DNA of 64,000 bases from Sulfobacillus sp. Its GTDB lineage: Bacteria; Bacillota; Sulfobacillia; Sulfobacillales; Sulfobacillaceae. Positions 62,228-63,682 of this stretch are shown one piece after another (within the stretch, counting starts at the first letter, position 1; each line of letters opens with the position of its first letter). A program made the position numbers and the translations under genes. The notes below the pieces were generated by a model, which was not told the origin of the DNA, made no database searches, and saw nothing but the letters and a program-made list of their open reading frames with translations. The stretch lies in assembly GCA_027343695.1 (NCBI GenBank), contig DAHWKJ010000081.1:1-64000 (forward strand), in the 5' to 3' direction.

Positions 62228-63166
62228 GTGGAGCGATGGGCCCGCATCAAAACCACGGTTCTTGACGTGGTGGGGGACACCCCCATGGTTTGGTTACAGC
62301 GCGTTGGTACTCCCGGCGGAGCAAGGATTGCCCTCAAACTTGAGTCATTTAATCCCGGGGGGAGCATTAAGGATCGTATCGCGCTCGCCTTGATTCAGGA
62401 CGCCGCACACTCTGGAAGGCTTTTACCAGGCGGGACCATCGTCGAAGCAACGGCGGGTAATACCGGGATAGCGCTTGCGATGGCTGCCGCAGTGTTGGGA
62501 TACCGTTCGATATTTGTGGTGCCGGATAAGATGAGCCCCGAAAAAGTTGGCATCCTGAAGGCCTACGGGGCCGAGGTGCGAGTGGTGGCGGACAAGCCGC
62601 GCTCGGATCCTGATAACTATCAAAATATTGCCAGAAAACTGGCCCAGTCACTGCCCGGAGGGTGTTACATGGGACAATTTGAGAGGCAGGCAAACCCGGA
62701 GGCCCATTTTTTGAGCACTGGTCCGGAAATCTGGAAGGATACCGGTGGGAATGTGGCGGCAGTCATTGCCGGCGCGGGTACGGGAGGCACGATAACCGGG
62801 ATTGCGCGTTATCTTAAGAGCCAGGATGCCACCATTCAGGTAATTGGCGCCGATCCCGAGGGCTCAATCTTAAGTGGAGGATCCTATCATCCATTCAAGA
62901 TTGAAGGGATGGGCGAGGACTACATTCCAGAGACGCTGGATATCGGTCTCGTCGATCGGTGGATCCCGGTGTCGGATGACGACGCCTTTGCTATGGCCCG
63001 GCGGTTGGCCCGTGAGGAAGGTATTTTGGCCGGTGGCTCAACTGGTGCCATGGTCGTGGTGGCTCAAATGGTCGCCCAAGAGTTGTCGTCCGACCAATTG
63101 GTGGTGGCAGTGGCACCCGATACCGGCCGCAACTACTTGAATAGCATTTTTTCAGAAACGCCTTAG
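62228..63166 (+). CDS. cysK: cysteine synthase A
   Basis: VGDTPMVWLQRV; LESFNPGGSIKDRIALALI (PLP lysine); EATAGNTGIALAMAAAVLGY; AVIAGAGTGGTITGIARYLK. Confidence 0.92.
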   Translation: MERWARIKTTVLDVVGDTPMVWLQRVGTPGGARIALKLESFNPGGSIKDRIALALIQDAAHSGRLLPGGTIVEATAGNTGIALAMAAAVLGYRSIFVVPDKMSPEKVGILKAYGAEVRVVADKPRSDPDNYQNIARKLAQSLPGGCYMGQFERQANPEAHFLSTGPEIWKDTGGNVAAVIAGAGTGGTITGIARYLKSQDATIQVIGADPEGSILSGGSYHPFKIEGMGEDYIPETLDIGLVDRWIPVSDDDAFAMARRLAREEGILAGGSTGAMVVVAQMVAQELSSDQLVVAVAPDTGRNYLNSIFSETP

Positions 63167-63179
63167 GAGGGATAATTCT

Positions 63180-63629
63180 ATGGATATTGGCTCGGTAGCA
63201 CCAGAAATTGTCTTGAGAGCAACCGATGGCGAAGAGTTCAGCTCACGTGATGCCGTCAAACGCGGCAAGTTAGTGTTAGCCTTTTTTCCGCTTGCCTTTA
63301 CACCAGGCTGAATTCACGAGTTGTCCACCTGGCGGGGGGACTTCAAAAAGATCGAGGAAGCGCATGCGACGATTGTAGGATTGAGCACGGACCAAACTTA
63401 CGCACAACGCGTGTTTAAAGCCTCTTTAGGCGGTCTACCCTATGAGTTATTGTCGGATTGGATGCGACATGTTTCAGCAGCTTATGGCGTGCTAGATGAA
63501 AAGGGTGGCTACGCGAAGCGTACAGTATTTGTCCTGGGACAAGACCATGAACTGGTGTATCAAGATCTGGCTTTCAAGCCTGGGGATGACGCTAGCTACG
63601 CGGCGGTCATTCAAGCGTTATCGCGCTAG
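63180..63629 (+). CDS. peroxiredoxin (AhpE/BCP-like) with predicted selenocysteine at codon 44 (UGA 63309-63311)
   Basis: ATG at 63180 preceded by AGGAGG. Reading through TGA gives MDIGSVAPEIVLRATDGEEFSSRDAVKRGKLVLAFFPLAFTPG-U-IHELSTWRGDFKKIEEAHATIVGLSTDQTYAQRVFKASLGGLPYELLSDWMRHVSAAYGVLDEKGGYAKRTVFVLGQDHELVYQDLAFKPGDDASYAAVIQALSR-stop. U sits at the peroxidatic Cys of PxxxTxxC. Confidence 0.85.
63312..63344 (+). promoter_or_regulatory. candidate bacterial SECIS element
   Basis: Hairpin just 3' of TGA: GAG-(UU bulge)-GUCC-a-CC-[UGGCG]-GG-g-GGAC-UUC. Apical loop starts 18 nt after UGA and has G at its second position. Folded by eye. Confidence 0.55.
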
Positions 63630-63653: not shown

Positions 63654-63682
63654 AAAAGCCCGGACACTGTCCGGGCTTTTTT
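63654..63682 (+). terminator. rho-independent terminator after the peroxiredoxin gene
   Basis: AAAAGCCCGGAC-act-GTCCGGGCTTTTTT, 12-bp stem plus T-tract. Confidence 0.92.

Follow-up and report, generated by a model that had tools for sequence, protein, structure and literature searches.

A reading frame in the window, by which we mean the whole stretch of 64,000 nucleotides of Sulfobacillus sp. DNA analyzed here, starts with an ATG at 63180 and ends with a TAG at 63627-63629, with one in-frame TGA between them, which raises the question of whether this gene is defective or encodes a selenoprotein. A sequence-only reading had proposed a peroxiredoxin in which the TGA at 63309-63311 takes the place of the catalytic Cys and stands for selenocysteine (Sec), with AGGAGG ahead of the ATG; its description of the frame was exact. 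The gene and its flanking signals are as follows:

63180 to 63629, forward strand: predicted Sec-containing peroxiredoxin gene, 149 amino acids with U44, stop codon TAG included; one TGA, with an AhpC-TSA domain across it
63309 to 63311, forward strand: TGA codon, predicted to be read as Sec 44, at the peroxidatic position of PxxxTxxU; TGA in every one of the 22 orthologs from the order and in 8 from Bacillus-related genomes, TGC or TGT in distant homologues
63165 to 63171, forward strand: Shine-Dalgarno sequence AGGAGGG, overlapping the stop codon of the upstream gene
63654 to 63680, forward strand: intrinsic terminator just past the TAG stop, 12-bp hairpin with a loop of 3 and a T-run

Translation with TGA as U placed U44 inside the motif PLAFTPGU, and the same codon was found in close relatives, in agreement with the proposed substitution of the catalytic Cys. 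The Pfam families AhpC-TSA (residues 3-127, E value of 5e-24) and Redoxin (residues 4-144) matched on both sides of U44, so the domain spans the TGA. Folding of the terminator gave -19.8 kcal/mol (z of -5.57), although a pattern scan for terminators did not have it in its list; its position just past the TAG indicates a transcription unit suited to the full-length frame.

The simplest alternative is that a nonsense mutation or a sequencing error cuts short an ordinary Cys peroxiredoxin. The assembly is indeed a draft, and under translation table 11 the longest ORF in the peroxiredoxin frame is a piece of 102 amino acids from 63321, as the earlier ORF track had it. However, the TGA occupies the identical codon in about 30 genomes that belong to several genera and two distant lineages, with no other lesions, and the earlier argument that a chance hit on this codon is unlikely gained weight from its presence in every close relative examined. 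Furthermore, purifying selection acts on the part of the gene past the TGA, since omega in close pairs was 0.04 to 0.11 there, similar to the 5' part. The pseudogene reading is thus practically refuted by conservation, and we assign it hardly any probability.

The distribution of the codon was then assessed in several collections. Of 101 genomes searched, from the same class and closer groups, 22 were found to carry an ortholog; all 22 belong to the same order, and each ortholog has exactly one internal TGA. In an alignment of 20 orthologs, the TGA column was invariant, as were P37, T41, G43, E47, D71, D93, and R114. A search of genome contigs with the window protein alone returned no match; an alignment-based search of genome contigs led to 169 relatives. 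Among named genomes, all 24 close matches had TGA at the peroxidatic codon, and the carriers include Sulfobacillus benefaciens, S. harzensis, other Bacillota, and Bacillus-related species (Neobacillus, Alkalicoccus, Alkalihalobacillus, and Bacillus sp.); eight Bacillus-related genomes have it. No Sec relatives were found in viral contigs. As had been expected of position 44, U was present in all close homologues and C in distant ones (approximately 29 to 40% identity, TGC or TGT in those read), and P37, T41, U/C44, and R114 were conserved. No Cys ortholog above approximately 40% identity was found in the named-genome collection; since one of the search patterns required a Cys codon, any close Cys forms present there should have been caught. 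A quick tree grouped the Sec rows of the peroxiredoxin group into one set without Cys rows (SH-aLRT of 93), and the label Sec needed two changes overall, the second being a paralog group with the motif PLAWTPVU. This second Sec peroxiredoxin is present in relatives (L031-L034), again with TGA at the peroxidatic codon.

The earlier reading had made its proposal depend on selA, selB, selC (tRNA-Sec), and selD, and all four are present in the source genome, which is a draft of 107 contigs that is 83.6% complete. The tRNA-Sec (C40:952-1043) has the anticodon TCA and scored 72.9 bits against a cut-off of 47, and SelA (563 bits), SelB (338 bits, in an open frame of 648 amino acids), and SelD (345 bits) were all above their cut-offs. 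Two further genes of this genome have an in-frame TGA:

L166, G000:C72:35443-36375: SelD, predicted selenoprotein, TGA in SGUGCK
L172, G000:C35:40866-42785: FdhA, predicted selenoprotein, TGA in CNRTUHAP

Together with the peroxiredoxin, they bring the predicted selenoprotein genes of the genome to at least three; a selenocysteine FdhA has previously been recorded in Sulfobacillus (PMC4378227). SelA was above the cut-off in 20 of the 22 carriers of the order; of the two remaining genomes, one is 63% complete. It was likewise above the cut-off in all seven Bacillus-related carriers tested and in neither of two genomes with distant Cys homologues. In two genomes of one genus (G003 and G012), SelA, SelB, SelD, and tRNA-Sec were all absent above the cut-offs, and there was no TGA peroxiredoxin among the matches listed; the entire Sec-decoding system has apparently been lost in this genus of the family.

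In-frame TGA codons in SelD and FdhA could also be read as signs of a general reassignment of UGA, for example to Trp, in place of site-specific Sec insertion. Yet both TGAs are found at known catalytic Sec/Cys positions, and the genome has the tRNA-Sec, SelA, SelB, and SelD. In addition, the Trp positions of the peroxiredoxin are encoded by TGG, and its distant homologues have Cys, never Trp, in place of the TGA. A general reassignment is therefore extremely improbable.

The expectation that a SECIS element follows the UGA was borne out by a SECIS-like hairpin:

63323 to 63341, forward strand: predicted SECIS hairpin of the bacterial type; its register of 8 bp is interrupted by one A.G mismatch, and the invariant Trp codon UGG supplies the apical GGC

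This stem-loop lies immediately 3' of the UGA, 14 to 32 nt from its first base, and has a G in its apical loop, and its support comes from synonymous permutations and comparison. In the window, it was more stable than permutations of synonymous codons (z of -4.15; P = 0.0025, the lowest value attainable with 400 permutations), and the mean z in 19 representatives was -2.7. When synonymous codons were permuted within each gene of 30 sequences, the 42 nt right after the UGA had a mean z of -1.37 (standard error of 0.25), and other offsets were between -0.56 and 0.37, so that only these 42 nt showed a clear excess of structure. The pairing register had its maximum 14 nt from the U of the UGA. Pair counts of the hairpin (76% paired) were above those of shuffled and slid controls, with a covariation of 0.374 as compared to 0.264 in shuffled and at most 0.217 in slid controls; the sequences in these tests are related to one another, and loop sizes of 3 and 4 nt both occur. 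With dinucleotide shuffles and plain minimum free energy folding, the window hairpin was not distinct (z of 0.55 to -0.91), nor did RNAalifold arrive at a consensus structure, which is probably due to two coexisting registers. The data support a predicted hairpin after the UGA of the kind that a bacterial SECIS element would form. As a separate observation, the base after the UGA (63312) was A in 23 of 23 aligned sequences, and the next residue was Ile, Ser, or Thr; the invariant UGAA may be a read-through context.

Some selenoproteins are known to receive Cys by misincorporation at their Sec codons. It is thus conceivable that translation mostly terminates at the UGA, or that at low selenium the Sec machinery mostly inserts Cys there, and that little of the full-length selenoprotein is made; a TTG start is present at 63321. 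Against this stand the invariance of the Sec codon, the SECIS-like hairpin, and the failure to find a close Cys ortholog, and the downstream fragment would be devoid of the catalytic loop. We consider such a regulated stop very unlikely, if marginally less so than a broken gene or a reassigned codon.

Decoding as Sec is the reading that we retain: the gene almost certainly encodes a Sec-containing, cysteine-free peroxiredoxin, as judged from its sequence. SelB and Sec-tRNA-Sec would decode the UGA at 63309-63311 on the ribosome, and sequence comparison suggests that they would be recruited by the hairpin that starts 11 nt after it. The window protein does not contain any cysteine, and most Sec orthologs likewise have none, the rest having one or two. 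Sec44 is therefore the sole possible peroxidatic residue, and its selenenic acid would have to be reduced from outside. An AlphaFold2 model with Cys substituted for Sec (pLDDT of 97.5, pTM of 0.92) had its best structural matches in Sulfolobus Bcp4 and in AhpE, a 1-Cys peroxiredoxin, with a TM-score of approximately 0.9, in agreement with the sequence search. A single peroxidatic residue, no resolving Cys, and an AhpE-like fold in this model point to the 1-Cys (AhpE) type, and the predicted protein must be a "1-Sec" peroxiredoxin whose catalytic cycle would resemble that of 1-Cys peroxiredoxins. Sec44, with Thr41, Pro37, and Arg114, would reduce H2O2 or organic peroxides and be converted to a selenenic acid, which an external thiol would reduce, with thioredoxin or some other dithiol protein as the most likely donor. 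Bacillithiol is an unlikely reductant because a search of the order for its synthase, BshC, gave no match.

The upstream neighbor of the peroxiredoxin is as follows:

62228 to 63166, forward strand: cysteine-synthase-like (CysM) gene, directly upstream of the peroxiredoxin, an adjacency kept in relatives

Many of the Sulfobacillaceae loci that were examined (L010, L087, L089-L095, and L025) have a CysM-like gene directly 5' of the Sec peroxiredoxin gene, mostly with gaps of -4 to approximately 80 nt, and the two genes are probably co-transcribed. A cysteine-synthase-like gene is also found directly 5' of tRNA-Sec in the same genome (G000:C40:948-2037, L001) and in 15 relatives, with 60 to 84% identity (tRNA-Sec loci in relatives: L063, L064, and L069-L081). 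The genes on the tRNA-Sec side and on the peroxiredoxin side are different paralogs with 43% identity.

Taking a wider view, we put forward, tentatively and with more doubt than conviction, a Sec-obligate, cysteine-free ("1-Sec") subfamily of Sulfobacillus relatives and Bacillaceae that shows no replacement of Sec by Cys and that in Sulfobacillaceae is co-expressed with a dedicated cysteine-synthase-like enzyme. If true, the recurrent association of cysteine-synthase-like genes with Sec genes, tRNA-Sec among them, would point to an unrecognized step of sulfur/selenium handling. The analysis corrects a gene that is cut short by standard ORF calling and reveals the same hidden enzyme across the lineage, in the 22 genomes of the order and in Bacillus-related species. 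A peroxidase that keeps Sec and has no close Cys ortholog is useful as a natural example in which to ask why Sec is retained, and the host lineage is related to acidophilic, metal- and sulfide-oxidizing Sulfobacillus, in which high oxidative stress is expected.

In the literature, of which our coverage was incomplete, we found no paper on this peroxiredoxin clade. A "PrxU" of Sb. thermotolerans was reported to be up-regulated in a proteomic study (PMC7409299); it may be the 178-amino-acid thioredoxin peroxidase of the table in that study, and thus perhaps another protein, and we did not use it as evidence. The TxxU-type Sec peroxiredoxins form a recognized family of selenoproteins, of which PrxU of Eubacterium acidaminophilum is the biochemically studied member (PMC1088965, PMC1794560, PMC9312934, PMC13188914). 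The earlier assignment to a PrxU-type Sec peroxiredoxin held for the Sec-containing TxxU class and failed for the curated PrxU equivalog (NF040737): Sec in place of the peroxidatic Cys is shared, but the window protein has 149 residues as compared to the 233 positions of the model and scored 42.1 bits where the curated cut-off requires 270; none of 61 genomes passed that cut-off.

The best sequence and fold matches were archaeal proteins of the PrxQ/BCP type (Bcp4 of Sulfolobus, 3hjp; Aeropyrum PrxQ, 2cx3/4gqc), which use Cys, whereas the window protein has Sec and lacks cysteine altogether. The atypical 2-Cys PrxQ/BCP type was rejected, as a resolving cysteine (e.g., CxxxxC) is lacking in a protein without Cys. 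AhpE, the 1-Cys peroxiredoxin of Mycobacterium tuberculosis (1xxu), is similar in fold, in its single catalytic chalcogen residue, and in its external reductant; it differs in having Cys instead of Sec, and the identity is 28%. With an AhpC/TSA domain, PxxxTxxU, Sec machinery in the genome, and distant Cys homologues (at most approximately 40% identity), the assignment of the window protein to the Sec-containing TxxU peroxiredoxins (COG1225/PF00578; reviews, PMC13188914 and PMC9312934; Sargasso set, PMC1088965) is well supported at the sequence level, which would make it a member of a known enzyme class and not a new kind of system. Like that class, it has PxxxTxxU at the peroxidatic position, the AhpC/TSA fold, and predicted bacterial UGA/SECIS decoding; its clade stands apart in that all members found have Sec, that most have no cysteine, and that they occur in Sulfobacillus relatives and Bacillaceae.
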